Source: Letharia columbiana
Lineage: Eukaryota > Ascomycota > Lecanoromycetes > Lecanorales > Parmeliaceae
NCBI RefSeq assembly: GCF_014066305.1
Contig: NW_023501037.1
Location: forward strand, 868,001-932,000
Direction: 5' to 3'
Length of the DNA: 64,000 bases
The notes beneath the pieces were generated by a model. It was not told the DNA's origin. It did no database searches and was given only the letters and a program-made list of their open reading frames with translations. The position numbers and the translations under genes were made by a program. Every line of letters begins with the position of its first letter. The first letter of the stretch is position 1. This document shows positions 12,934 to 64,000 of the stretch, in pieces.

Positions 12934-13077
12934 TATTAAGAAATTATTATAATTTAACTTATATATATATATATAATATAAAAGATATTAATTAATCTAT
13001 ATAATTTATAAATAAATATATATAATATTAAGTCTACGTTAGTAGTTCTATAAGTATTTCTAAAATATTATATAATA
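12934..13077 (-). repeat. LTR of the 5.1-kb family B element (left in window)
   Basis: TATTAAGAAATTATTATAA corresponds to TGTTAAGGAATCATTATGA at 50315, and the end TATAATA to CATGACA. All mismatches noticed against the clean LTR are RIP-type transitions or small length changes. Confidence 0.78.
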
Positions 13078-13579
13078 ATTACTTATAAAAAATAGAGAAA
13101 TATTATATTCTTATAATAAGAAGTATTAAAATATTAAAGAGAATTAAAGATATCGAGTTAATTAGTAATAAATATTTTATAATATCTTCTATTATAGTAA
13201 AATCTTTCGAAATAACTATTAAAGTAAGATATTAGACGATTTTAATTTATTTAAATATATATTATTCGATATTCTTTTATAAAGATCTAATTAGCTATAA
13301 TTATCGTAATAAATTCTTCTCTTCTATTATTATTATAGTAATAGATTATAATATAATATTGTTTAGATATATAGAGATAGTAAGTTAAATTATAGTAATA
13401 TTCTTTACTTATTAAATAGCGATTTAATATAAGAGCGTAAAGAGTAAGTTTATATTCTTAATAATATAAGTCTTACTATCGCTTAATTTCTCTATAATAT
13501 TCTTTATAGTATTCTTCGTAATCTTCTTTGCATTTATCTATTATAGTAACTTCTTCTCTTACTCGATTAACTACTCTAG

Positions 13580-14102
13580 CTACGCTACGTAACGAAGTAA
13601 AATAAGACGAAGTTTTAAATACTTAATACTATCTCTCTTTAAGACGAGATTTTAATAAAGTAAAATTAAGTTAAGATAATATTTTTTTATCGAGATAATA
13701 AGAGTATTTCGTTATTCTTATTAAGCGTTTAATTAGATTAGCTCGAGACTATTATCTCGATAACGCCTCTATAATATCTTCTATAGCGCTCTCGTAATAT
13801 TTCTCTTCTTATATATCTTATTATCTTTCTAAGCATCTATATCTTACTCTAATTTAAATTATAATATCGTATTCTATACTCTATTTTATTATACTTCTTA
13901 ATATAGAATATTAAAATTTAGAGAAATCGCTTAGTAATACTTAGGGTTTATCGAATTAACGAAGTATATTTCGAAATCTCAGCTCCGAGTTATAGGCGGG
14001 GTCGAAGTTTCGAGCTTCCTCGAAACCCCGACCCGAAACCCTATTCTAACCTCGACTCCTTCGAAATCTCATCGAGATTTCTTATCTTATTACGTAGCGT
14101 AG
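13580..14102. mobile_element. Family D: 523-bp TIR element (MITE-like)
   Basis: The element starts CTACGCTACGTAA (13580-13592) and ends with the exact reverse complement TTACGTAGCGTAG (14090-14102). CTCTAG sits directly outside both ends (13574-13579, 14103-14108), so it is a probable target duplication. The outside sequence resumes the interrupted family B sequence. There is no coding frame. A GC-rich near-palindrome lies at 13997-14035. Further, less complete copies lie at 18.74-19.74 kb. Confidence 0.8.
13997..14035. repeat. GC-rich inverted repeat (hairpin) inside family D
   Basis: CGGGGTCGAAGTTTCGAG and CTCGAAACCCCGACCCG are inverted around a CTTC spacer. The two arm mismatches are AA against GG, that is RIP-type transitions in one arm. 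The original arms were probably perfect. Confidence 0.8.
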
Positions 14103-14108
14103 CTCTAG

Positions 14109-16700
14109 CTAAATAGCTAACTAGACGACTTATTCGATAATCGTCGAGAGATAATATTTAAGAATTCTAGTATTATTATTTATATTATTACTATAAAACT
14201 ACTATATAATTTATATTAAATAGTCGTAATCTATTATATAAACTTTATTTAATTCTTTCTATAGTGAAATCGTTCTATATAAGTTTCTTTCTTATATAAA
14301 GAGATTTTATAGATAGCGTATCCTCCTCTAATCTTTTATACTCTCTTACTATTACTACTTATTTCTTTATTAAACCTTCGAAATTCTTTCTTCTAACGAT
14401 TTAAACGATATATAAAATACTATTAAACGATCTTTAAGTCTTATTATTTATAATTATTTTATATTAATTTTAATAGAGTAGAAAGTAAGATAAGAGGTTA
14501 TCGAGATCGTTTATCTTTTCTATCTTTCTTAAGTAATCTTATTATTATCTATTTAAGAAACGTCTAATACTTCTAACGAAATATTTCTATAGATTCATAG
14601 AGTTTAAAAGTATTCGAAAGATCTTTTATCTAATTTCCAGTGAAATTAGAGTATTTATATTCGATTATAAGCTCTATAAGAAGAATATATAGTTATTAAT
14701 ATATTAAATCGATTAATCTCCCTCTATATATCTATTATAGTAGAAAAAGATCTTCGAAATATCGAAATTCTTTTATTAGACGTTATTTCTATTCTCTTTA
14801 AAAGTAGATAAGATAATATAATTATTAATACTTATTCTATTAAGACGCTTTCTCTTTTTAATAATAATATTATTAATCTCTCTAATATCGTAGATAGTAA
14901 TAAGGGCTAAAATAAGATTATTATTCTATTAGACTACTTAATAAGAATATCGTTCTAAACTACTATAATAAGAGTATCGTATAAAATATTCTTAATAAAT
15001 CGCTATTTTATCTCTATAAGTAATTCTAAGAAGATTTATTTAATTTAGCTTTATAGTCTTATATATAGTTATTCTTATAATCTTTAACTTACTAGCTAGC
15101 TTTAATTTAATAAAATAATTATTTATAAAGAGAATAAAGTTAGAGAATAGTATATTAATAATTAATTTAAAGACTATAGCGCTTATATCTCTAAGACCTT
15201 TAACTTTAAATCTATTCTCGAGATCTTATTTAGATAAATATTATATATAGTTATAGAGATAGCTCTTATTATTAATTATAAAAATCTTATATTTCTTCTT
15301 AATTAACTTATCTAAAGTTATAATAGAATAATAAATATATCTTATCTTCTTAATTATATATTTATTAATTATATAATAACTATTTAAGATATATAATTTC
15401 TTTTAATTACTTTATATCTTATCGATAAATAAAAGTATCTTCTTATATTATATAGACTTCTAATATCTATTCTTTTTAATAGTAAAAGAATTCTCTTCGT
15501 TAGAATCTAAATAATAAATTATTCTTCGAAGAAGTATATAGCGATCTTATATTATTTCGCTAGTAAGAATCGAAGATATCGAAGTAATATTATTAATTCT
15601 TTAATAATTATAAATAGTAGAAAAGCGATAGATTCTTATATAGATTATAATAGCGACGAAGATTTTTAGCTTCGAAATACGAGTAAGTTTTTAATAAGAA
15701 TCTAAAGAACTCTATCGAGAAGTATATAAATTTATACTTTTATAAAGTATATTCTAGATAATAGTAGTTTATATAAAGCTAAATACTAAATATAAGAGAA
15801 TTATAAAGTTATTCGAAAAGTAATTAATAAGTATATAATACTCGATTTATAGTAGTTAATACTTAGATAATATAGATATACATCGAAGAAGAATATTATA
15901 TTACTTAAGTTTTTCTTTCTTATCTCGATCGTAGCCTCTTTTTTTTAACGTTTCTAGATCTTATATACTTCGTTCTTATTAGACTAAGATAGAGTAGCAA
16001 TTTTAGTTATATTAAACTATATTTAATAAAATAGTAAGAAAGAATATAAAAAAGTCGCGTTCTTAAAAGACGCGATTTTTAAAGCTAAAATGTTATCTCG
16101 GCTCGGCGATTATCGAATAGAGATCTCTTATATTACTAATAAGTCTTCTAATTTCGATACTTCTTCTTCTATTATATTATACGTATAAATAAATACTTCG
16201 ATAATCGAGTAATATAGAAATTAAATAAATTATTACTATTCTAATTATAAGAATTAAAATCGTATAATAAGTATATTATTATTCGAAAATAGAAAAATAA
16301 GATTATATTCTTAATAAAAGCTAGTATAATCTATAATAGAGATATTTAAAAATATATATAGCTATAATATAAATAAGATAAGTTTTATAGTATATAAGTT
16401 TATTATAATATTAATAAATTTAATTACTAGTCGAAAAGATATATTATATCTTATAGAATATTTTATATTAAGTAATATTATATCGTACTCGAATATAATA
16501 TAAATAGAATTAAATATTATTTTATTTTTCTAATATAGATTTAAAATCTTAATAATATATATTACGATATAATATATCTATAATATTATATTATAAAATA
16601 ATATATATATAAGATATTTCGTTAAGATTTCTATATTTAGAAGTATAAAGTAGCTATTTTAATTATTATTCTAGTTAACGACTAATCGTATATACTTTTA
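14109..16700. other. Unidentified RIP-degraded interior of the 5.1-kb element
   Basis: There is no open frame of note and no reverse transcriptase, integrase or transposase motif that I could read on either strand. CpA and TpG are rare. This may be an insertion in the family B element or its lost autonomous coding part; I cannot tell which. Confidence 0.45.
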
Positions 16701-16710
16701 TTTAATATAT

Positions 16711-16868
16711 TATTATAGCTATTACTATTATAGTATTTACTACTCTTATAATTAATACTATTATAGCTAATATTATTATATTTATTATTATTATAGCTAT
16801 TATTATTATAGTTACTATTATTATAACTATTACTTACTATTATAACTATTACTATTATAGCTACTATC
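16711..16868. repeat. 15-bp minisatellite (TATTATTATAGCTAT type)
   Basis: Imperfect tandem copies of a 15-bp unit close to ATTACTATTATAGCT are interspersed with 18-bp variants. The same unit recurs at 16,998-17,040 and, in near-perfect form, at 59316-59435. Confidence 0.85.
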
Positions 16869-17054
16869 GAAATATAACTTTCGCGTATTCTAGTTATTAT
16901 ATTCTTTAATTATCTAATTTTATACTATATTTAAAATCTAGTCTCGAAGAGATTTTAAAGAATTAATTTATTCGTTCTATATATTATATATCTAATATTT
17001 TAATAGCTATTACTATTATAGCTATTACTATTTATTATTTAAATAATTTATTAT

Positions 17055-17465
17055 TATATAATAGTTATAATAGTATTAATTATAATAGTATTAATTATAA
17101 TAATATTAATTATAATAATATTAATTATAATAATATTAGTTATAATAATATTAATTAAAATAATATTAATTAGAGTAATATTAATTAGAGTAATATTAAT
17201 TAGAGTAATATTAATTAAAGTAATATTAATTAAAATAATATTAATTAAAGTAATATTAGCTAGAATAATATTAATTAAAATAGTATTAGTTAGAGTAATA
17301 CTAGTTAGAGTAATATTAATTAAAATAATATTAATTAAAATAATACTAGTTAGAATAATATTAATTAGAATAATATTAATTAAAGTAATATTAATTATAA
17401 AAGTATTAATTATAATAGTATTAGTTATAATAATATTAGTTATAATAGTATTAGCTATAATAAAT
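17055..17465. repeat. Long 15-bp minisatellite (TAATATTAATTATAA type)
   Basis: About 27 tandem 15-bp units have the form TAATATTAATTAnAn. The first units carry TATAA, the middle ones TAGAG or TAAAA, and the last ones TATAA again. It is the reverse complement of the CTATTACTATTATAA type seen nearby, diversified by point change. Confidence 0.88.
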
Positions 17466-17876
17466 TAGAATAATAACTAGAATAACTACTTATACTTTTA
17501 AATATAGAAATTCTTATCGAGATATCTTATATATATATTATTTTATAATATAATATTATAGATATATTATATCGTAATATATATCGTTAAGATCTTATAC
17601 TATACTAGATATAAAATTATATAAATCTTAATAACTTATATTATATTAGAGTATAGTATAATATATTAATATTTTATATTATATTATATCTTTTTAACTA
17701 GTAGATTTAATAAAAGAATCGATTTAGATAATATTAAGAGATATTTAATAACTATAAGTATATTAGAGAATTAACTTAAAGTATTATATTATTAAATATT
17801 AATATAAACTTTACGTAAACGTCTAATATAACGTCTATTAATCTATAAATATAAATCTTTAAATATTACTATTAAA

Positions 17877-18018
17877 TATTAAGAAATTATTATAATTTAA
17901 CTTATATATATATATAGTATAAAAGTTATTAACTATTCTATATAATTTATAAATAAATATATACGATACTAAGTTTACGCTAGTAACTATATAAGTATTT
18001 CTAAGATATCTTATAATA
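17877..18018 (-). repeat. LTR of the 5.1-kb family B element (right in window)
   Basis: This 142-bp direct repeat of 12934-13077 has the same length as the clean LTR. It is preceded by a mutated copy of the sequence that lies inside the LTR at 51,352-51,532. Confidence 0.78.
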
Positions 18019-27455: not shown

Positions 27456-27461
27456 ATTATA

Positions 27462-29640
27462 AGTAAAGGCCTATGAATTAAATTCATAAAGTTGAATTTT
27501 TCTAAGTTAAATCGAATTTTAGCCCTAGCCCTAAGTCAAATCGAACTCTAATCGCTTACTGTGCGTTTTTAACCTATATATAAGTATATATATATGAAGA
27601 GAGGCGCGCTAAGGCCTAATTAGAAAGGTATATTAAGTATAGAGAATTAATTCGTAATAATTACCTATAAAAAATAGAGAAAGACCACGTTCTTATAATA
27701 AGAAGTATCGAAATATCGAAAAGAAATAAAGATAACGTGCTAATTAATGGTATAAATTCTATAATATCTTCTACCGTAGTAAAATCTTTCGAATAATAAA
27801 ATAGCTGTAGACATCGAACGATTTCAATTCGTTTAAATATATATCGTTCGATATTTCTTCTATAGAGGCTTAATTAACTATAATAGTAGATTCTTCTCTT
27901 ATAACGTTATTGTAGTAATGTATCATATTAATATAGTAAGAATAATAGACTAAGTTATAGTAATATTCTTCGCTTACTAAGTAATAATTTAATATAAAAC
28001 CGTGGAGAGTATATAACGTGGAATCTTGGAGAGCTAAGCCGTGTTCTTAACGATAATAGTCTTATTGCCGCTTGATTTCTCCGTAGTATTCTCCGCATTT
28101 GCCTATTATAGTTCCTTCTCTTACTCCTCAATATAGTAGAAATAACAGGTCAAGTTACAGTGGTATTCTCCGCTTACTAAGTAATGATTTAATATAAAAC
28201 GATTAAGTTGCAGTGGTATTCTCCGCTTACTAAGTGATAATTTAATATAAAACCGTGAAGAGTATATAACGTGGGATCTTGGAGAGTTGAGCCGTGTTCT
28301 TGACGATGATAGTCTTATTACCGCTTGATTTCTCCGCAGTATTCTCCGTAGTATTCTCCATAGTGTTCTCCGCATTTGCCTATTATAGTTTCTCCTCTTA
28401 CGATATTTCTTCTATAGAGGCCTAATTAACTATAATCGTCGTAGTAGATCCTCCTCTTATAACGTTATTGTAGTAATGTATTATATTAATATAGTAGGGA
28501 TGATAGGCCAAGTTGTAGTGGTGTTCTCCGCTTACTAAGTAATGATTTGATATGAAATCGTAAAGAGCATATAACGTGAGATCTTGGAGAGCTGAGCCGT
28601 GTTCTTGACGATGATAACCTTGTTGCCGCTTAGTTTCTCCGCAGTGTTCTCCGTAATATTCTCCGCAGTATTCTCCGCATTTATCTATTGTAGTTTCTTC
28701 TCTTACTTCTTAATGCAGTAGGGATAACAAGCCAAGTTGTAGTGGTGTTCTCCGCTTACTAAGTAATGATTTGATATAAAACCGTGAAGAGTATATGACG
28801 TGGGATCTTGGAGAGCTGAGCCGTGTTCTTAGTGCTGAGGGCCTTATTGCCGCTTAGTTTCTCCGCAGTATTCTCCGCATTCGCCTATTATAGATCCTTC
28901 TCTTACTCCTCCTCTTATAGAGTATCAAACTAAGTGGCTAGCTAAGTAGCTGACTGAGTGAATAATTGATATAACGTGGGATCTTGGAGAGCTAAGCCGT
29001 GTTCTTAACGATGGTGACCTTATTGCCGCTTAGTTTCTCCGCAGTGTTCTCCATAGTATTCTCCGCAGTGTTCTCCGCATTTGCCTATTATAGTTCCTCC
29101 TCTTACTCCTTAATGCAGTGGGGATGATAGGCTAAATTGTAGTAATGTTCTCCGCTTACTGAGTGATGATTTGATATAAAATCGTGGAGAGTATATGACG
29201 TGAGATCTTAAAGAGCTGAGGCGTGTTTTTGACGATGGTGGCTTTATTACCGCTTGATTTCTCCGTAGTATTCTCCGTATTTATCTATTATAGTTCCTTC
29301 TTTTACTCCTTAATATAGTGGGAATAATAGACTAAGTTGTAGTGATATTCTTCGCTTACTAAGTAATGATTTAATATAAAATCGTGAAGAGTATATAACG
29401 TGGAATCTCGGAGAGTTAAGCCGTATTCTTGACGATAATAGCTTTATTACCGCTTGATTTCTCCGTAGTATTCTCTAGTATTCTCCGTAGTATTCTCCGC
29501 ATTTATCTATTATAGTTTCTTCTCTTACTTCTTCTCTTATAGAGTATTAAACTAAGTAATTAGCTGAGTAACTAATTAAGTAAATTACTAAGCTAATAGA
29601 GTAAATAGTATTAACTAAGTAACTAATCGAGTAGTATATA
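27462..29640 (-). repeat. Family B copy with expanded internal repeats
   Basis: It starts with the palindromic terminus AGTAAAGGCCTATGAATT and continues into the sequence matching the 3' part of the BIR-element ORF. The region for the repeat-rich tail is then expanded: TTCTCCGCTTACTAAG-type words recur at about 27,967, 28,166, 28,219, 28,524, 28,748, 29,148 and 29,348. Between them are GGATCTTGGAGAGCTGAGCC and GTATTCTCCGCA runs. RIP is moderate, since many TpG and CpA survive. Minus frames are broken. No BIR part was recognised in this copy. Confidence 0.75.
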
Positions 29641-33194: not shown

Positions 33195-34920
33195 ACTCTA
33201 ATAAGTAAAAACTTATAAATTAAATTTATAAAGTTAAATTTTTCTAAGTTAAATAAAGTTAAATTTTTCTAAGTTAAATGAAATTTTAGCTCTAGCTCTA
33301 AGTTAAATCGAACTCTAATTACTTACTATACGTTTTTAATCTACTTTTCTTAGTTTTATTATTATAAAATTAATAAAGAAGATAAAAGCCTTAATTCTAA
33401 GTTAAATTAAACTCTATTTATTTTTTATATAATATTTAATCTATTTAATTTATTTCTATTACTATAAATCGCTAATTAATTATATTCTTATTTAAAAAAG
33501 AAGTATTTATTTAATAATCTTATTTTTAATATATCTTATTAATTAAGTAAATTATCTTCTTAATAAATCGCCTAGAATTATAATTAATAAGTTAACTTTA
33601 TTAATAACTCGACTTAAGACTATATATAATTAATTATAAATAAAAACTTCGAAGTATAGATATAGATTAATTTACTATAATAATTAGTCTTAGATTTTAT
33701 TAATTATTATATTAAAGATTAATTAAATTAGAAATTAAATATATTAAAAGAAAGTATATAGATTATTCGAATTAGATAAAGTTAGAGGGATATATAATAT
33801 ATAATATTATTTATTATTATATTTATTTTTAAGAATATAATAATCGAGTATTTTAGATTTAATATATTTTATTTATAAATATATCTTATTATATAGATTT
33901 ATATATTATTTTAAATTTCTTAATATTATTATTATATAATCTTATATTAATTTTAAATAATAAGATAAAAGCGAGATTAATTTAAAGATATTTATTATTT
34001 TAATAAGTAGAAGAAAGCTATCTTTCTTATTAACGACTTAATTTCTATTATTATAAATAATTTTAGCTTTAAAAAACTTATTAAAAACTTAATTATTAAA
34101 TTAAGTAATATTCTTATTAAAAGTATAAAGAATTATTTTAGATATATAGAAATTAGCTATTTAATATAAGTTAAGATTATTATAAATAATATTAATTACG
34201 TTATAAGTAATAAAATATATAATTATAAATTAAATAAGAGAAAAAGTAAAGTTTAATATTTATCGCTATAGTATTAAATACGCTATTAATTAAATAACGA
34301 TCTCGCTCTTTATTATTAAGAGATAAAATTATTATATCGAGTAAAAAGCGTAAGATAACTACTCTAATAAATATCGATAATAAAAAAATCTTTATATTAT
34401 AATCTTTTATTAAAGAGATATAAATTTCTAAATCTAAATACGCGTTAATAATAATATATACTATTAATAATTATTAAATACTCTTATATAAGAAGTATAA
34501 TTTAATTTTTAATTTTATAAATAATCGAGAAAAAAAGTAAGAGTAAACTTTAAAGGTATATATTATAAATATATAAGGATATAAGGATATAATTTTAATT
34601 TTTCTTAAATCTATAATATCGATTTAGATATTTATTAACGCGAGTAATTTTAGATTTATCGCGATTTTTTTATAAGTAATAAAAAGTAAATATTAAAATT
34701 AGTATAGATACGATATTAGTATAAGTAAGATAGATAAAATAATAAGACTATCGAATTATATATATAAAAAGAAGATATAATATAGTAGAGAATATCTTCT
34801 ATTAAGATATTAGATTATAGAATTAAGTAATATATTAAGAATACGCTCGTAATAGTAAATAGATATCGTAATAGTAAATATAAAGTAATTTATATTATTA
34901 GTTAATATAGTAATTATATA
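33195..34920. other. Family B terminus fragment, then unassigned RIP-degraded DNA
   Basis: 33,195-33,350 repeats the AGTAAA..TTATAAATTAAATTTATAAAG terminus of family B, with a short internal duplication of AAGTTAAATTTTTCTAAGTT. From 33,350 to 34,920 I see only AT-rich broken frames. Confidence 0.5.
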
Positions 34921-36085: not shown

Positions 36086-36548
36086 TACATCACTGCAATA
36101 ACGTTATAAGAGGAGGATCTACTGCGACGATCACAGCCAAAGGAGGAACATCGGACGATACATATTTGGACGAATTGAAACCGTCCGATGTCTTACTCTG
36201 ACAGCTATTTCATTATTCGAATGATTTTACTGCGGTAGAAGATAATATGGGATTTACATCACTAATTAATATATTGTCTTCATTTCTTTCCAGTATTTCA
36301 ATACTTCTTACTATAAGGATATAGCCTTTCTCTATTTTTTATAGATAATTATTACGAATTAATTCTTTATACTCGATATACCTTTCTAATTAGACCTTAG
36401 CGCGCCTCTCTCTATATATATATACTTATATATAGATTAAAAACGTATAGTAAGCGATTAGAGTTCGATTTAACTTAGAACTAGAGACTAAAATTCAATT
36501 TAACTTAGAAAAATTCAACTTTATAAATTTAATTCATAAGCCTTTACT
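35738..36548 (+). repeat. Family B copy, partly unmutated
   Basis: From 35,738 to about 36,260 the sequence keeps CpA and TpG and aligns with the BIR-element ORF tail and its 3' part. From 36,260 to the terminus (reverse complement of AGTAAAGGC, ending 36548) it is RIP-mutated. The BIR domain itself is absent. It shows the family B end that replaces the LTR in most copies. Confidence 0.78.
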
Positions 36549-36549
36549 T

Positions 36550-37845
36550 ATTTATTATATTTTTATATTAAATTTTATTTAAAAATAATAAGAATAATTA
36601 TAATAAAATTATATAATATAATATTACGTAGTTAGATAATTTTAATATATTTAAATAATTTAAAAATTTATTAAAAGTTTTTTTAGAAGAGCTATTTAAT
36701 AATTTTAATATATATAATTAAATTAAGTATTTAATTAATTTATTATCTAAGAAGCTATTTAGAAGTAATTTAATTTATAATATATTATATAATAAATTTA
36801 TAATAATTAGAGATTATCTAAATATTATATTTAAAAGAAAATAAATTTAATTTTTAATTAGTTAAATTAGCTCGCTAATATTATTTATTAAAAAATTAAA
36901 TAACTTATTATAATTATATATTAATTATCGAGAATTTAATAAGATAATTATTAAGAATAATTACTCGTTATCGCTATTTTTAAAGATTTTAAAAAGATTT
37001 ATATATATAAAGTACTTTATTAAAATTAATATTTATAATATATATTATCGAATATAAATATAAAAAGAAGATAAGTAAAAAGTTATTTTTTAAACTCGCT
37101 ATAATTAATTTAAGTATTAAATAATATCTTTTAATCTTATAAATACTTTTATAATCTTTTAAATCTATATAAATAAAGTATTTAAATTATATATTAATAT
37201 CTTCTATATAATATATTTAAATAATATATTAATCTATTTTAAAATAGAAGAGTTATATTAAAAGTATATATATAAATATTACGCGTATTATTAAAGTATT
37301 AACTTTATATAAAGTTATTAAAATATACTTTTAATTATAATAAGATTTTTTTTTTAGAGTTCTTAATAAATTAGCGTAGTATTTAAATAAAGTTATTATA
37401 TATTAAAACTATTATTAAATAGCTAGAACTAGAGTTTATTAAGAATATCTTAATTTTTCTAAAATTTATAAACTTTTATTAATAATTTATATAAGGCTTT
37501 TTATAAATAACTACGTTTTTAATAAATCTAATTTAAGAAGCGAAGAAAGATGAGATTAAATTACTCTTCGTATTTAATAAAAAAGTATATAAGACTTTTA
37601 AAATACTTAAGCGAATATTTATTATTATATTTATATTAAAATATTATAATTAAAAAATATTATTTATTATAAAGATTAATACTTTTAATATAGATATAAA
37701 TATTATACTTAATTAATTAAGCGAAAATAGATAATAATATCTTATTACTTTTTTTAGTTATAAATTTAAAAATATTAAATTTTACTAGAATATATATAAT
37801 AAAAAGCTTTATATAATTATATTAGACTTTAAAAATTAAAGATAT
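36550..37845 (+). pseudogene. Ty3/gypsy reverse transcriptase remnant (third element)
   Basis: At 36923 the frame reads N-Y-R-E-F-N-K-I-I-I-K-N (from D-Y-R-x-x-N). Exactly 99 codons later, in the same frame, it reads Y-L-N-N-I-L-I-Y (37214-37237), the mutated Y-L-D-D catalytic box. Then comes L-E-x-E-F-I-K-N-I-L-I-F-L-K-F-I-N-F-Y, the connection region. Spacing equals that in the two other gypsy elements here. No LTR was found. Family B lies directly on the left and a family A module directly on the right. Confidence 0.8.
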
Positions 37846-48650: not shown

Positions 48651-50314
48651 CTTAACGAGAAAAGAGAAATTCTTATTAAAGACTTTATAACGATAAAGAT
48701 AAAAATAGAAGTAATATTTATTTTATCGTTAATTTACGAAGATAGAGTATTTTTAAATAATTAAAACGAGTTATAAACTCTTATTAAAATCTATTTTAAT
48801 AATAATATAAAGATAAATATAATAAACTAGCGTTTTACGATTAAATAGAATCTAATAAAGATTAATAATCTTTTATTAAAACTTATATAAATAAATAAAA
48901 AATTAACTTATTACTATAGTATTTATTTAATTATCTATTATTTATAAAATAGTTAAAAGCGTATTAAGCGCTATAAATATATTTTTTATATTATTAATAA
49001 GAAAGATCTTTTAATAATTTTAGATCTTTTAATCTTAATTAATAAGCGAATTAAAATAAATATAAAAGATTAAATCTAGCGTTTCGATATTAAAAAGTAA
49101 TTACTTAAGATTCTAATATTATAATAATTCGCGAATACTTTATAGAGATATAAGATTATTTATATATTAGTTATAGTCGAAATAATAATTATAAATAAAA
49201 AATTAAAAATTAATATAGTTAAAATATAGAGTATTTATATAAATAGCGTAGAGATTATTTTTAAATCTTTTAATAAATTAAAAGAATATAAAGATATATT
49301 CTTATTAGAAGAAGTAAATTAATTATTATTATATAAAAATTATAATTATATTATTAAAATTACGACGAAGCTATTATTTAGTTTATTATATAATTTATTT
49401 AATATAAAGTTAATAATATTAAGAATTTATTTTAATAAAGTCTTAGCGAAGAATTAAATAAGATATTTTATAAGTTCGATAGAAGCTCTAATTTTATTTA
49501 TTTTAAAAAAGAATAAAGATTTATATTTATATATTAACTATCGTAAACTAAATAAAATAATTATTAAAAATTAATATCTCTTATTCTTAATTAGCGAGAC
49601 GCTTGATTATTTAAATAATTTTAAGCGATATATTAAATTTAATTTAAAGAATATTTATTATTATATATAAATTTATAAAGACGATAAGTAAAAGATAGCG
49701 TTTTATATATATTACGAGTATTTTAAATATTTAATAATATTATTTAACTTAATTAACGCTTTAATAATCTTTTAAATCTATATTATTTAAGTCTTAATTA
49801 AACTAGTTAATTAATTTTATATAATATATTTAAATAATATTTTTATCTATTTTAATATAAAAAAGAAGTATTTAGATTATATAAAGTAAATACTTAATTA
49901 ATTTAAATAATATAGCCTTTATATAAGTTTAAAGAAATATAAAAAATTTATTATCGAAGTAAAATTTCTCGACTTTATAATATTTATTATTAATATTATT
50001 ATAAATAAATATAGAATAGTTATAATCTAAGAGTAGCTAAAATTAAAAGATTATTATAATATATAAGTTTTTCCTAAATTTATAAATTTTTATCGAAGAT
50101 TTATTTATTATTAATCTTAAATTATAGGTTCTTTAATAGAATTTCTTAAGAAAAGCGAAAAAGATATTAAGTTAGAATTATTTCTATAGCTCGAAATTAT
50201 AGAATATATATTTAAGAAGTTAAAGAGTATTTTTATAATTATATTTCTTCTAAAATATTTTAACTTTTAGCTTTTAATTTAAATCGAAATTAATATCTTA
50301 TTATTCGCTATAGC
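48651..50314 (+). pseudogene. pol of the second gypsy element, part 1: RT and start of RNase H
   Basis: In one frame: I-N-Y-R-K-L-N-K-I-I-I-K-N at 49533 (from D-Y-R-x-L-N-K-I-T-I-K-N), I-S-E-T-L-D-Y-L, then exactly 99 codons after the first Asp position Y-L-N-N-I-F-I-Y at 49827 (Y-L-D-D), and E-I-N-I-L-L-F-A-I-A at 50286 (from E-T-D-A-S-x-F-A-I-A, the RNase H catalytic start). The frame is cut at 50314 by the BIR-carrying element and resumes at 51675. Confidence 0.85.
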
Positions 50315-50456
50315 TGTTAAGGAATCATTATGATTTGACTTATATATGTGTGTGGTGTAAAAGATGTTGATTAATCTATGTGCCTGCAGGGCAGATATGT
50401 GCGGTGCCAAGCCTACGCTAGTGGCCCTATGAGTATGCCTGAGGCATCTCATGACA
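50315..50456 (-). repeat. LTR of the BIR-carrying element (3' LTR in sense orientation)
   Basis: 142 bp, TG...CA, with a 5-bp target duplication ATAGC on its outer side. The ORF's stop codon (50449-50451) lies within it. Confidence 0.92.
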
Positions 50457-51342
50457 ATTGCCCACAAAAAACAGAGAAATGCCATGTCCTCATGGCAAGA
50501 AGCATGCATGCATGTGTGCTTTTCGAAAAACCGGAAAGAATTGGAGACACCAGGCTAATTAGTGGTGTGCATCCCGCTAAATCTCCTGCTGGAATGAAAA
50601 CTTTTGAATGATGAAATGACTGTCGGAGCAAGATATCGGACGGTTTCAATTCGTCCAAATATGCACTGTCCGATCTTCCTCCTGATCTTCCTCCTGCAGT
50701 CGAGAGTGGCCCAATTGGCTGTGATCGACGCAGTAGATCCTCCTCTTGTGACGTCATTGCAGTAATGTACCCTATCAATACAGTGGGGATGGAAGGCCAA
50801 ATTGCAGTTGTGTTCTCCGCTTGCTGAGTGATGATTTGACGTGGAAGCGTGGAGAGTAGACCTGTGTTCTTGGTGATGGGGGCCTTGCTGCCGCTTGGTT
50901 TCTCTGCAGTGTTCTCCACAGTGTTCTCCGCAATCTTCTCCGTATTTGCCTGTTGTAGTTCCTCCTCTTGCTCAACTGAGTGCTCTGGCTGAGTGGCTGA
51001 CTGAGTGGATGACTGAGTGGATTGGTGAGCTGGCGAAGTGGCTGCTTGTAGAGACCTTCTCTTGTATTGCTGGCGTCGAGTCTTCTGATTCCGGTCCTTC
51101 TTTTTCTGCTGTGTTGCACGTACAAATGGACACTCCGGTGATCGAGTAGCGTGGAAATCAAATGGATTGTCACTATCCCAGTCACAAGGATCAAGACCGC
51201 ATAGTGAGCACACCGTTAGATCCGGGGATGGAAAAGTAGGGTCGAATTCTCGATGAAAGCCAGCACGGGCTACGGTAGAGGCACTTGGATAAACGTGTGG
51301 CTATGACGTGAATGAGGCGAGTCTTTTAGCGTATGAATTCAT
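50449..51342 (-). pseudogene. BIR-domain protein with repeat-rich tail, one nonsense mutation
   Basis: The frame opens at the ATG at 51340-51342 and would give 297 codons, but codon 14 (51301-51303) is TAG. With Trp at that place it reads S-F-T-S-W-P-H, the usual BIR opening, followed by A-R-A-G-F-H and then C45-S-L-C48, H64 and C71, the C-x2-C-x15-H-x6-C zinc ligands; P-E-C-P-F-V closes the fold. Residues 75-110 are basic and Gln-rich. About 110-185 is Gln/Thr/Asn-rich with E-N-T repeats. The C-terminus has no recognised domain. BIR domains bind zinc and mediate protein contacts in inhibitor-of-apoptosis and Bir1/survivin proteins; the role here is unknown. A start at GTG 51213 would remove half the domain. 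The TAG is CpA-to-TpA on the plus strand, so RIP is the likely cause. Confidence 0.8.
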
Positions 51343-51517
51343 GATATCGATAGGCCTAGCGAAAGGATCGATGTGGACGGTGTTTTGGTCAAATGGTACT
51401 CGATGACCAACGAGTGTATATAAGGGCCGGCTTGGAGCGTTGCACTATTAGGTGTTGATGCAGGCTTTGCGTAAACGTCTGATGTGACGCCTGTTGGTCT
51501 ATGGATATAGATCTTCA

Positions 51518-51530
51518 GGTGTTGCTACCA
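51518..51530 (-). promoter_or_regulatory. Primer binding site of the BIR-carrying element
   Basis: The minus strand reads TGGTAGCAACACC two bases inside the LTR, which would pair with a tRNA 3' end ...GGTGTTGCTACCA. The first seven bases equal those used by many elements primed by initiator tRNA-Met; the tRNA itself is not identified. Confidence 0.65.
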
Positions 51531-51532
51531 AT

Positions 51533-51674
51533 TGTTAAGGAATCATTATGGTTTGACTCATATATGTGTGTGGTGTAAAAGATGTTGATTATTCTATGTG
51601 CCTGCAGGGCAGATATGTGCGGTGCCAAGCCTACGCTAGTGGCCCTATGAGTATCCCTGACGCATCTCATGACA
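51533..51674 (-). repeat. LTR of the BIR-carrying element (5' LTR in sense orientation)
   Basis: 142 bp, differing from 50315-50456 at five positions (two transitions, three transversions), so the insertion is not brand new. Followed by the ATAGC duplication at 51675-51679. Confidence 0.92.
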
Positions 51675-52426
51675 ATAGCGAGTATATTAATTTAGTTATA
51701 TATAAATAAGTAATAATATTTAATTATTTTTTATTTAAGAAAGATAATTAATATAAATTATAATTATAAAATATATAATTAAAAACTTCTCGCGATTATT
51801 ATAATATTTAAATATTAATACTATTATCTAAAGAGAAGTTTCTATATTATAAAAGTTTTTATTAATTATAATAATTTAAAATATTTTATAAAGTAATTAA
51901 TATTAAATAGTAGATAAATTCGCTAAATAATAAAACTCTCTTTATATAATTTTTTAATTTTATATAAATTAAATAAGATAAACTTTATTAATACGCCTTT
52001 AAAACGCTTTAATTATAAAGGCGAAAATAAATTAATTAATAGACTTTTCTTTATATTATAATAGAAACTAGCTAGAATTAAAAATCTTTTAAATTCTATT
52101 TTAATTATTATTAAGATAGCTTATAAAAATTATAAAAATTATATATATAAAAAATATAATTTTAATAATAAATATCTTATTATATTAAATAATTTAAGTA
52201 TAAATAAAAGTTTCTTAGATACTAGTTTTTAAAAGAAGTATTTATAAAAAAGATAATATTTAAGAATTTAATAACTATTATAATATAAGAAATCTACTTA
52301 AATATAATATATTCTTTAAAATTTAAAGAATTTTAATCTTTAATAAAAGAAAGCTTAAGCGAGATATTTATTTAATATATTCGTAATATAATTAATAAGC
52401 GACTTAATTCTATTATTAAAACTATA
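51675..52426 (+). pseudogene. pol of the second gypsy element, part 2: rest of RNase H
   Basis: Continues the frame cut at 50314 (A-I-A-S-I-L-I). Near 51,910-51,990 is R-x-A-R-x-x-x-K-L-S-L-Y-N-F-L-I-Y-Y-K-L-N-K-I-N-F-I-N-T-P, the mutated end of RNase H with its tether. The element is interrupted again at 52427 by family B and C repeats. Confidence 0.75.
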
Positions 52427-53570
52427 AGTAAAGGCCTATGAATTAAATTTATAAAGTTGAATTTTTCTAAGTTAAATCGAATTTTAGCCCTAGCTCTAAG
52501 TTAAATCGAACTCTAATCGCTTACTATACGTTTTTAATCTACTTCTATTACTATAAAATTAATTTAATCTATATAGTATATAAGTATATATATATAAAGA
52601 GAGGCGCGCTAAGGTCTAATTAGAAAGGTATAATAATTACTTATAAAAAATAGAGAAAGACTATATTCTTATAGTAAGAAGTATTAAAATATCGAAAAGA
52701 AATAAAGATAACGTATTAATTAGTGGTGTAAATCCTATAATATCTTCTATCGTAGTGAAATTTTTCGAATAATAAAATAGCTATAGATATCGAACGGTTT
52801 TAATTCGTTTAAATATATATCGTTTCGAAGTAATAATTTAATATAAAACCGTAGAGAGTATATAACGTGAGATCTTAAAGAGCTAAGCCGTATTCTTAAC
52901 GATGATAGCCTTATTACCGCTTAGTTTCTTCGTAATATTCTTCGCATTTATCTATTATAGTTCCTTCTCTTACTTCTTAATATAGTAAAAATAATAGATT
53001 AAATTATAGTAATATTTTTCGCTTATTAAGTAATAACTTAATATAAAATAATTAAGTTATAATAATATTCTTTACTTACTAAATAATAATTTAATATAAA
53101 ATTATAAAGAATATATAACGTAAGATCTTAGAGAGCTAAGCCGTATTCTTAATAATAATAATCTTATTACCGCTTAGTTTCTATAGTATTCTTCGTATTT
53201 ATCTATTATAGTTCTTTCTCTTACTTCTTAATATAGTAAAGATAATAAACTAAATTATAGTAATATTCTCCGCTTACTAAGTAATAATTTAATATAAAAT
53301 CATAGAGAGTATATAATATGAAATCTTAGAGAGCTAAGCCGTATTCTTAATACTAAAGACTTTATTATCGCTTAATTTCTTTATAGTATTCTCCGTATTC
53401 GTCTACTATATTAACTTCTCTTATACTAGCTAAATAAATTAATATAAGATTATAAAGAGTAGGCCTATTATATTACTACTGCTAATAACTATCTTCGTAA
53501 TATTCTCCGTAGTATTCTCCGTATTCGCCTATTATAGATTCTTCTCTTATTTAACTAAATGCGAGGATAT
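52427..53570 (-). repeat. Family B copy with palindromic terminus
   Basis: Starts AGTAAAGGCCTATGAATT, runs through the mutated 3' part of the BIR-element ORF and several mutated tail units (TCTTCGCTTACTAA words), and joins family C without spacer. Confidence 0.75.
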
Positions 53571-60005: not shown

Positions 60006-61510
60006 ATATATTTATCGTCGATACTCTCGCACTTAGTTAAATAAGAGAAGGATCTATAATAGACGAATACGAAGAATACTACGAAGAATATTACGGAGAT
60101 AGTTATTAGTAGTAGTAATATAATAAACCTACTCTTTATAATCTTATACTAATTTACTTAGCTAGTATAAGAGAAGTTATTATAGTAGACGAATACGAAG
60201 AATACTACGAAGAAATTAAGCGATAATAAGACTCTTAATACTAAGAATACGACTTAGCTCTTTAAGATCTTACGTTATATACTCTCTATAATTCTATATT
60301 AAATTATTACTTAGTAAGCGAAGAATATTATTATAATTTAACTTATTATTCTTACTATATTAATAATATCGTAAGAGAAGAAATTATAATAGATAAATAC
60401 GAAGAATATTACGGAGAATACTACGAAGAATATTACGAAGAAATTAAGCGATAATAAGACTATTATCGTTAAGAATATAACTTAACTCTTTAAGATCTCA
60501 CGTTATATACTCTTTACGATTTTATATTAAATTATTACTTAGTAAGCGAAGAATATTACTATAACTTAATTTATTATTTCTATTATATTAATATAATATA
60601 TTACTATAATAACGTTATAAGAGAAGAATCTACTATAACGATTATAGTTAATTAGATCTCTATAGAAGAAATATCGAATAATATATATTTAAACGAATTA
60701 AAATCGTTTAATATCTATAGCTATTTCATTATTCGAAAGATTTTACTACGATAGAAGATATTATAAGATTTATACTACTAATTACATCTATAAATCTAAA
60801 AAGTTTCTATAAAATTTGAAATTGCTAATCGCGCGTATATCGCGGAAATTATAAAATCCGCCGAATTAGTAAATCTAATTAGAATTCGTCTAAATTCCGC
60901 CGGTTCAGTAACTATCTTAATCTTTTTTATTAGTTCTATTAGTTTAGCAGTAATATATACGAAAAAGAAAAGTTCTAATAATCGACGTTGCGATAATAAG
61001 GTTCTATAATAACGAGTATTAACGCTAACTTAAATTTGACTATAAAATTAAACGATTTAATAAAATTAGTCGCGTAGATAATACTCTAATATAGCGTATA
61101 ATAATATATATATTAATAATAATATATATTAATATCATATATAGAATAGTACTTAAAGTATATTAGAGTGCATTACGCAAAATTTTTAAAGTTGCTAAAA
61201 ATTTTTAAAGTTACTAGACTGGTAGAACTAGCGGAAAGAGTTAGATATAGATAAAGTCTACTTAATAAACTAAATTATACTTATAATGCGGACTCGGCGA
61301 AAATCGTGTGGAAATTTACTTTTCAGATTTGCAGATATAATACGTTATCTCTATTTCTTTTTAATATTTTTAATACTTCTTATTATAAGAATATAATCTT
61401 TCTCTATTTTTTATAAGTAATTATTACGAATTAATTCTCTATACTATATCTTCCTAATTAGACCTTAGCGCGCCTCTCTTCGTATATATATATCTATAGA
61501 CTATATAGAT
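60005..61510 (+). repeat. Family B copy interrupted by a small TIR element
   Basis: It starts as the copy at 35.74 kb does (CTCTCGCACTTAGTTAAATAAG) but is strongly RIP-mutated. Tail units are duplicated (GAATACTACGAAGAA words at 60,080, 60,200, 60,410). It is interrupted at 60785-61337 and continues to the GCGCGCCTCTCTTCG block near 61,470. Confidence 0.75.
60785..61337. mobile_element. 553-bp MITE-like element with TA target duplication
   Basis: The left end is CATCTATAAATCTAAAAAGT. The right end reads, reversed, TATCTGCAAATCTGAAAAGT, the same but for transitions. TA flanks both ends (60783-60784, 61338-61339). It interrupts family B precisely: the two sides rejoin to match 36,250-36,300. 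No ORF. Ends and target suggest a Tc1/mariner-type MITE. The right end is unmutated (GTGTGGAAATTTACTTTTCAG). Confidence 0.8.
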
Positions 61511-61636
61511 TAATGAAATAACTTTATATTATATTAATATTATATAATATTAAAAACTATTTCTTAATAATAGTTTTAATTAAAAAAATAGATTATGAAT
61601 TTAATTTATAGACTTAAACTTATTATAACTATTATA

Positions 61637-62990
61637 AGTAAAGGCCTATAAATTAAATTTATAGAGTTGGATTTTTCTAAGTTAAATCGAATTCTAGCCT
61701 TAGCTCTAAGTTAAATCGAACTCTAATCGCTTGCTATGCATTTTTAATCTATATATAAATATATATATACGAAGAGAGGCGCGCTAAGACTTAATTAGAA
61801 AGGTATATCGAGTATAGAGAATTAATTCGTAATAATTATCTATAAAAAATAGAGAAAGGCTATATTCTTATAGTAAGAAGTATCGAAATATCGAAAAGAA
61901 ATAAAGATAATATATTAATTAGTGGTGTAAATCTTATATTATCTTCTATCGTAGTAAAATCTTTCGAATAATAAAATAGCTATTAGAGTAAGATATCGGA
62001 CGATTTCAATTCGTTTAAATATATATCGTTCGATATTTAATTAGCTATAATTATCGTAGTAGATTCTTCTCTTATAACGTTATTATAATAATATATTATA
62101 TTAATATAGTAAGAATAATAAGCTAAGTTATAGTAGTATTATTCGCTTATCGAGTAATAATTTAATATAGAATCGTAGAGAGTATATAACGTGGGATCTT
62201 AGAGAGCTAAGCCGTGTTCTTAACGATAATAATCTTATTACCGCTTAGTTTCTCCGTAGTATTCTTTATATTTATCTATTATAGTTTCTTCTCTTATAGA
62301 GTATTAGATTAAGTAACTAGTTAAGTAACTAACTAAGTAAATAACTAATATAACGTAGGATCTTAGAGAGCTAAGCTATATTCTTAACGATAGTAGCCTT
62401 ATTATCGCTTAATTTCTTCGTAGTATTCTTCGTATTTATCTATTATAGTTTCTTCTCTTACTTCTTCTCTTATAGAGAGAGTATTAGATTAAGTAGCTAG
62501 CTAAGTAGCTAACTAAGTAAATAACTAATATAACGTAAGATCTTAAAGAGCTAAGCCGTGTTCTTGACGATAATAGTCTTATTATCGCTTAGTTTCTTCG
62601 TAATATTCTTCGCATTTATCTATTATAGTTTCTTCTCTTACTTCTTAATATAGTAAAGATAATAAACTAAGTTATAGTAGTATTCTTCGCTTACTAAATA
62701 ATAATTTAATATAAAATAACTAAGTTATAGTAATATTCTTCGCTTACTAAGTAATAATTTAATATAGAACTATAGAGAGTATATAATATAAAATCTTAAA
62801 GAGCTAAGTCGTATTCTTAACGATAATAATCTTATTACCGCTTAATTTCTTCGTAGTATTCTTCGCATTTATCTATTATAGTTTCTTCTCTTACTTCTTA
62901 ATATAATAAAGATAATAGATTAAATTATAATAGTATTTTTCGCTTACTAAGTAATAATTTAATATAGAATCGTAAAGAGTATATAATATC
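61637..62990 (-). repeat. Family B copy with palindromic terminus
   Basis: Starts AGTAAAGGCCTATAAATT and runs through the 3' part of the ORF and four or more mutated tail units; joins family C at about 62,990. Same B-then-C arrangement as at 27.5-30.3 and 52.4-54.4 kb. Confidence 0.75.
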
Positions 62991-63620
62991 TAAACGCGTT
63001 TAGTATAACTATAATATTTAAATATTAATTTAATTTATCTATCGCTAGCTTAAGAGAAGTATATAGAAAAAGATATATCCGTTTAAACTCTTTTAAAAAA
63101 CCTTTTAACGCGTTTATAAGTAGTAGTAAATAGCTATTAAGTTTATTTACGATCTCGATTACTAGTAGTAGCGAATTTGTTAAGAGATAATCTAGAGGCG
63201 TTAGTAAGAGGCTTTAATTAGATAAAGAATATCGAAGATAATTATATTTATATTAGTAAAATTAATAGAATTAATAGAATTAATAGAATTAATAGAATAA
63301 TAAAAGAATAATAAATAGATAAAAGAATTATTATTCGATCTCGAATACGTTTAATATAACTATTATAATTATTATATTTAAATATTTATTTAATTTATTA
63401 ATAGTAAACTAAACTTTATAATTTTTATAGCGTTAGAAAGTATAAAGCGAGTTTTATAATTTAAGAAATTATAAAGTAATTATATATATCGTAAACTAAG
63501 TACTTTAAAGTATAAAACTTCTATATATAAATTTTTAATAAAAAAGCTTAGAAGGGCTAGCGGGCTAATTTAGTCGATTTAATTAAAGAGCGTAGTAATT
63601 CTAAATTTATAATTAATTAC
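62991..63620 (+). repeat. Family C repeat, copy 6
   Basis: AAACGCGTTTAGTATAACTA, CCTTTTAACGCGTTTATAAG, TTAATAGAATT x4, TTAGAAAGTATAAAGCGAG. The closing module is cut at AATTAATTAC, where the next family B copy has inserted. Confidence 0.75.
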
Positions 63621-63621
63621 A

Positions 63622-64000
63622 AGTAAAGGCCCATGAATTAAATTCATGGAGTTGGATTTTTCTAAGTCAAATCGAACTCTAATCGCTTGCTGTGCGTTTT
63701 TGACCTACATACAGGTATATATGTGCGGAGAGAGGCGCGCTAAGGCCTAATTAGGAAGGTGTATCGAGTGTGGAGGATTGATCCGTAATAATTGCCCACA
63801 AAAAACAGAGAAAGGCCATGTCCTTATGGCAAGAAGTATCGAAATACCGGAAAGAAATGGAGACAACATGCCAATTAGTGGTGTGAATCCCACATTATCT
63901 CCTGCCGCAGTGAAATCTTTCGAATAATGAAATAGCTGTCAGAGCAAGACATCGGACGGTTTCAATTCGTCCAAATATGCATCGTTCCGGAGTGATGATT
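63622..64000 (-). repeat. Family B copy, unmutated, running off the window
   Basis: Normal CpA and TpG. Starts AGTAAAGGC, then the perfect 19-bp palindrome CCATGAATTAAATTCATGG. From 63,777 it matches 50,457 onward (AATTGCCCACAAAAAACAGA). It lacks the LTR: the first 155 bases replace it. It is inserted in a RIP-mutated family C copy, so it is a young copy. A full unit, possibly with the BIR part, may lie beyond base 64,000. Confidence 0.8.

Follow-up and report, generated by a model that had tools for sequence, protein, structure and literature searches.

The window analysed here is a stretch of 64,000 nucleotides from the lichen-forming fungus Letharia columbiana, at positions 868001-932000 of contig 2, and a short LTR element occupies part of its minus strand. 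The features of this element and of its immediate borders are as follows.

50315-51674, minus strand: LTR element
50310-50314, no strand: first copy of the target duplication, ATAGC
51675-51679, no strand: second copy of the target duplication, ATAGC
51533-51674, minus strand: 5' LTR, 142 bp, identical to the 3' LTR at 137 of 142 positions
50315-50456, minus strand: 3' LTR, 142 bp
51518-51531, minus strand: primer-site-like sequence TTGGTAGCAACACC adjoining the 5' LTR
51343-51532, minus strand: leader, from the 5' LTR to the ATG, common to copies with different modules
50449-51342, minus strand: ORF frame of the element gene, broken by TAG at codon 14 (51301-51303)
51121-51324, minus strand: BIR domain (PF00653), 35 bits, with one TAG inside
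51046-51111, minus strand: basic stretch QQKKKDRNQKTRRQQYKRRSLQ after the BIR domain (coordinates counted by eye)
50716-50928, minus strand: shared tail, apparently related to part of a Gag-like protein
50457-50613, minus strand: conserved 3' region, ending before the 3' LTR in CTGTTTTTTGTGGGCAAT, a weak polypurine tract

The LTRs have TG...CA termini and are bordered by the exact ATAGC duplication, so that the LTR pair proposed in the first-pass annotation of this DNA is borne out. The sequence CTGTTTTTTGTGGGCAAT preceding the 3' LTR is conserved among copies and its purine run is short. The predicted fold of the leader RNA is not notable (z -1.25). The window copy has a GC content of 47.6% and no RIP signature, whereas the approximately 3 kb on each side have 15-18% GC and strong RIP indices; this contrast indicates that the element probably landed in repeat DNA that was already RIP-mutated and then itself escaped mutation.

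The profile search that had been proposed for the frame places the BIR domain of the window copy at 35 bits, against a Pfam cut-off of 22.9, and the motifs C-x2-C-x15-H-x6-C, AGF, and PECPFV are present, confirming the domain first recognized from the letters. The Trp reported at codon 14 was a misreading: the codon is TAG in the window copy and Trp in intact copies, and the BIR domain thus cannot be made from the window copy's own ATG. E-values for the domain in three intact frames are 8e-10 (L005), 1e-10 (L006), and 3e-10 (L011); four element frames score 27.9-42.5 bits for PF00653, and a scan of the genome found 11 element copies with a BIR domain at 35-45 bits, all over the same cut-off. 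The closest solved structures are those of NAIP (E 2e-7) and survivin (E 3e-7). The zinc ligands C-x2-C, H, and C are invariant across an 8-row alignment of BIR domains; copies that have decayed, L003 and L014 among them, have lost part of these ligands. Two runs of structure prediction gave poor models, with mean pLDDT of 45 and 53, and the single Foldseek match to such a model, a BIR chain at E 6.4, is not counted as evidence.

The window element has at least 108 matching stretches genome-wide (best 40 of 492 candidates). A search for LTR pairs around the ORF, as the first-pass annotation had advised, yielded 16 LTR-bounded copies that were read individually, and 11 of these contain the BIR region. 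The copies are dispersed and in part recent. With L019 and L021 set aside for having one end damaged or shifted, 14 clean-ended copies are available; an exact 5-bp duplication was recognized by eye in 13 of them (the exception is L007), and between the two LTRs of each copy there are 0-9 substitutions over ∼142 positions, with none in L006 and L009. Some 3' LTR ends are mutated, for example TTTCTTAATA in L002. Seventeen BIR matches were found in the genome, of which 11 belong to the window-element family. Ten of the 11 are in LTR-bounded copies; the other, L012, lies at the end of a contig and has one LTR. L003 is LTR-bounded and contains the BIR region, yet is absent from the genome matches. 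The combination of LTRs and BIR domain recurs in copies and is not due to chance. The notion that two repeats flank an ordinary BIR gene by coincidence is refuted by the same layout at 11 LTR-bounded loci with a BIR region and by exact duplications in 13 of the 14 copies. The proposal that a non-autonomous retroelement carries and spreads a BIR gene accordingly holds to the extent that 11 BIR matches lie in dispersed members of an LTR family with duplications, and its remaining part is taken up below.

The window contains further sequences related to the element:

12934-18018, minus strand: heavily RIP-mutated relative of 5.1 kb, sharing LTRs, leader, BIR region, and tail with the element
27457-27659, 33201-33446, 36350-36551, 52423-52640, 61422-61834, and 63617-63790: second LTR type

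In the relative at 12934-18018, approximately 1.3 kb precedes the BIR region and 2.5 kb follows it, and its length may be due to nested insertions or may represent an older long form. RIP-mutated LTR matches number at least 46 in the genome (best 40 of 77 candidates). Among the matches listed, seven neighbouring same-strand pairs have spans of 1.16-1.42 kb, and further pairs comprise one of 2.4 kb, one adjacent pair on C51, and the 5.1-kb member in the window; none of the listed matches points to an autonomous member that is clearly longer. The second LTR type, 268 bp in length (TGTTACGG...), adjoins the same tail and 3' region and has at least about 40 genome matches (best 40 of 649 candidates). 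The tail-coding repeat also occurs in tandem arrays, at 27708-29573 in the window and at loci L022, L024, L026, and L028.

The front of the element protein is not the same in all copies. Non-BIR fronts are found in four LTR-bounded copies, L015 and L020 having one module, L016 another, and L019 a third, and these copies have the same kind of LTR, leader, and tail despite their unrelated fronts; no Pfam match over cut-off was obtained in their scanned frames. Recurrence of modules was assessed in 82 proteins, taken from the 100 of 112 in which the tail is present and having at least 59 residues before it. Stricter clustering assigned the 82 to 27 clusters, 13 of them with at least two members; three multi-member clusters (starting MRRILRR, MYQRGG, and MSVTPS) were discounted as other-frame or linker starts by eye, and about ten recurrent N-terminal modules on the shared tail result, of which BIR is one. 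A looser clustering (8 clusters, one of them of 46 proteins) was discarded because the Q/T/P linker joined unrelated fronts.

Near-identical backbones thus carry unrelated modules, as is most readily seen in pairwise comparisons. Copies L011 (BIR) and L020 (non-BIR) agree at 267 of 268 aligned tail positions, with 5 gapped, and at 182/182 positions of the 3' region, but at just 103/246 in the module; other pairs with different modules show 33-45% module agreement. Copies sharing a module give the converse picture: L011 and L010, both with BIR, agree at 284/297 module and 199/232 tail positions, and L015 and L020, with the same non-BIR module, at 240/246 and 200/233. In these alignments, backbone and module evidently have separate histories. 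Copy L004 is likewise a mosaic, identical to L006 at 950/950 positions over 370-1319, its last 950 bases, and to L001 and L003 at 42/42 over codons 1-14, common stop included. The first-pass annotation had considered that the LTR-like repeats and the ORF might prove to be independent sequences; this is so in part, as LTR type and module do recombine, but in the loci read they do so among members of one element superfamily. The peptide IDPFxRPxDI stands in frame right before the ATG in several module types (L005, P0076, P0096, P0100), as either a conserved RNA signal or upstream coding sequence.

The proposed route of front exchange is template switching, which would take place between RNAs packaged together. 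Chromosomal copies undergoing ectopic recombination or gene conversion would show the same mosaic pattern, and internal tail repeats are indeed tandem in some loci; we nevertheless consider exchange between chromosomal copies rather unlikely, given that the mosaics L004, L011, and L020 each keep an intact 5-bp duplication and have LTR differences of only 1, 1, and 2, respectively. Intact duplications and near-identical LTRs are as expected if the mosaic preceded insertion, and are compatible with conversion too.

Stops are present in the window copy (L001) and in L002, L003, and L004, and the same allele, K6 with TAG14, is found in the three insertions L001, L003, and L004. Three insertion sites have apparently received the stop-bearing allele, indicating that an intact BIR domain is dispensable in cis and suggesting that the element protein is supplied in trans. 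A less simple alternative is independent RIP at the same bases in all three copies. The TAG at the Trp codon could have arisen by RIP. A-to-I editing would read TAG as Trp, and speculatively codon 14 might be an editing site.

The common stop is also what would be expected if the BIR domain were passive cargo, a host gene transduced once whose conservation merely reflects recent spread and common ancestry, since the stop apparently reached three insertion sites by descent and four copies in all have stops. Substitutions in the BIR domain argue otherwise. Over up to 98 codons of BIR and basic stretch, with the codon-14 stop of L001 skipped, dN/dS is 0.09-0.26 in all ten pairs among the five better-preserved copies L006, L010, L011, L005, and L001, at dS of 0.15-0.26, and Fisher tests on 8 of the 10 pairs, which are not independent of each other, give p from 7e-7 to 4e-3. 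Pairs involving the decayed copies L002, L003, L012, or L013 have dN/dS from 0.13 to 0.84, and the tail is less constrained (0.28-1.03 over 28 pairs). These ratios indicate that the element BIR has been kept under purifying selection. Beyond Letharia columbiana, BIR domain and tail occur together in Letharia lupina and in ENA records, and the NCBI record P0033 contains BIR (55.7 bits), basic stretch, and tail, with 42% identity along an alignment that covers 92% of the query ORF. Both the low dN/dS among the better-preserved copies and the occurrence of all three parts in P0033 run counter to the cargo explanation, which we regard as distinctly unlikely.

The tail has relatives in elements of another kind. 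Loci L077 and L080 are LTR elements of 1.72 kb with 153-bp LTRs and a 387-aa frame, their only coding content being a Gag-like ORF. The LTRs of L077 are identical, the 5-bp duplications read by eye are ACCGC (L077) and TTTAC (L080), and the LTRs partly resemble those of the BIR family, at 86% over 78 bp. Residues 140-198 of the L077 protein are homologous to the tail: the protein matches P0082 at E 3e-14 (2.6e-5 under the settings of the 112-protein search) and 13 of the 112 proteins at E up to 1e-3, and these residues match BIR copies L007 and L009 at E 2e-4 in tblastn. When the tail profile was compared with L077, hhalign gave a weak result (probability 26%, E 7e-4), and P0033 alone gave no match to L077. 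Locus L082 is intermediate: its LTR end and leader are of L077 type (96% over 129 bp), its 3' region resembles that of the BIR family (89% over 88 bp), and its ORF, that of P0047, has another module and the tail; by these matches, it bridges the L077 type and the BIR family. The comparisons indicate that the tail is related to the Gag-like protein of related LTR elements. Searches with the L077 protein gave no match in Pfam (E up to 1), in the PDB (E up to 10), or in the phage collection, and the label Gag is therefore one that we assume from the position of this protein in an LTR element and from motifs that we take to be of Gag type. Accordingly, the earlier description of the BIR domain as captured cargo oversimplifies, since the ORF is Gag-related at its rear and other copies carry unrelated fronts in place of BIR; the idea of capture is right in outline, with BIR one cassette of a modular, apparently Gag-derived family.

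In a tree of BIR domains (11 rows, 75 columns, including a hand-assembled row for L031), the element BIRs, P0033, and the host gene L033 split from Bir1-type domains with support 96/97. A tree of 75 columns made without the L031 row has the same split (98/95); in it, with midpoint rooting, L033 branches between P0033 and the remaining element BIRs (92/89). Derivation of the element BIR directly from the Bir1 of this genome is unsupported, as the trees separate the two. L033 (HO173_011276, C69:47924-48127) is a single-BIR host gene at 45-49% to the element BIRs. Its locus, over 3.2 kb, has no DNA match to the LTR, leader, or 3' region, and a word-limited search (E up to 1e-3) yielded no other homologue; the gene is either kin of the donor or a domesticated relic of an element. 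Two more module types with the same tail are present in NCBI records, one in P0098 and one in P0099 and P0100. The source of these three records is probably not Letharia, and they and P0033 are perhaps from one organism. P0100, a non-BIR protein, agrees by eye with BIR copy L005 at 26 of 30 residues before and at the ATG.

The first-pass annotation also raised the possibility of an effect on cell death or chromosome passenger functions. For such a role in the host, many loci would have to produce a protein resembling Bir1 or survivin. Retention of all zinc ligands and sequence kinship to survivin are in keeping with such a role, but in the trees the element BIRs fall with a single-BIR host gene and not with domains of Bir1 type, and no further IAP domain exceeds its own cut-off in the four BIR frames scanned, rendering this explanation highly improbable.

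The sequence following the LTR, TTGGTAGCAACAYC, is found at 26 places in the genome and at none in a reversed control. Its conservation agrees with the primer binding site that had been proposed; as to the tRNA type of that site, searches with three patterns gave no convincing match to a primer tRNA, one of them returning eight matches, no excess over its reversed control (5 and 7). Places outside the known copies were examined as L077-L082, with C1:1845583, C18, C26, and C87:13885 left out. L079 is another short element with the primer-site sequence. In L078 and L081 the same sequence follows a different LTR-like stretch, 83% similar between the two. The longest frame in the 16 copies is 341 aa, and no reverse transcriptase or integrase domain was detected in eight frames scanned. 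None of the 150 RVT_2 matches in the genome could be tied to the family, and no autonomous partner was found among them; the one Copia-type locus read (L076, 6.5 kb) was considered as partner and rejected, since no LTR pair, primer site, or match to the element was seen.

We interpret the locus as one copy in a family of non-autonomous LTR retroelements from lichen fungi, in which the element gene probably combines an exchangeable N-terminal module with a Gag-derived tail, and to this reading we assign a probability of roughly 0.6. RNA driven by the LTR would be packaged and copied by enzymes of a partner element, with reverse transcriptase and integrase acting in trans, and the common leader and 3' part are probably the recognition signals. 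The BIR domain would have been taken from a single-BIR host gene lineage and may provide the Gag-like protein with its protein-contact module, either for self-assembly or for docking to a host protein, for example in chromatin; in sister elements its place would be filled by modules that appear coiled-coil-like by eye. More tentatively, and with somewhat less than even expectation, the Gag-derived protein may carry a cassette long exchanged between coexisting lineages, of which BIR would be a functional version (assembly or chromatin docking) acting in trans as a good shared by the family. That the protein would be shared in trans follows from the movement of elements with a broken cassette.

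Several known systems resemble the family in part. TRIMs are not expected to have protein-coding capacity, whereas in the window family an ORF that comprises a BIR and a Gag-related part is conserved, is under purifying selection, and recurs in divergent records. TR-GAG elements of plants are LTR elements that keep only a Gag-type ORF; the window family differs in that its apparent Gag relic is truncated and its N-terminal module exchangeable, one such module being BIR. Bs1 of maize and similar LTR elements contain a transduced cellular gene and are thus alike in having host-derived coding sequence within an LTR element, but in the window family the host-like domain is under selection and is one of several alternative modules. 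Bir1, survivin, and IAP proteins share the PF00653 BIR by sequence; the element has a single BIR fused to a Gag-derived tail and falls outside the Bir1-type group in trees. In its shortness, lack of autonomy, and 5-bp duplications, the family is similar to TRIMs including fungal Helenus, described in PMC10886601 as short non-autonomous LTR elements with 5-bp duplications in fungi. According to the same paper, TRIMs are thought to depend on an autonomous element that shares perhaps only the primer region, and Copia elements with 5-bp duplications are presumed to mobilize the Helenus-type TRIMs of fungi (PMC10886601), which the duplication length in the window family fits. Helenus LTRs are stated there to hold a tRNA-like sequence (PMC10886601), whereas ARAGORN finds no tRNA inside the window and Rfam gives no match in 50300-51690. 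A hAT element of Pseudocercospora fijiensis that captured histone H3, with copies subject to RIP, is a comparable fungal transposon multiplying a captured host domain, but it is a DNA transposon with another domain, and the relevant passage makes no mention of module exchange (PMC13041039). Neither a BIR-bearing LTR element nor the window family was found in the titles and abstracts listed by searches of open-licence papers.

If the interpretation is true, Gag-type proteins can exchange their front part as a cassette, and a domain known from proteins of cell division and cell death can be co-opted as such a front. The mosaics constitute a natural set in which to study how retroelements that lack a polymerase of their own recombine. 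Dozens of annotated Letharia 'hypothetical proteins' belong to the superfamily of the window element, and annotated proteins such as P0044 read the tail repeat in more than one frame.
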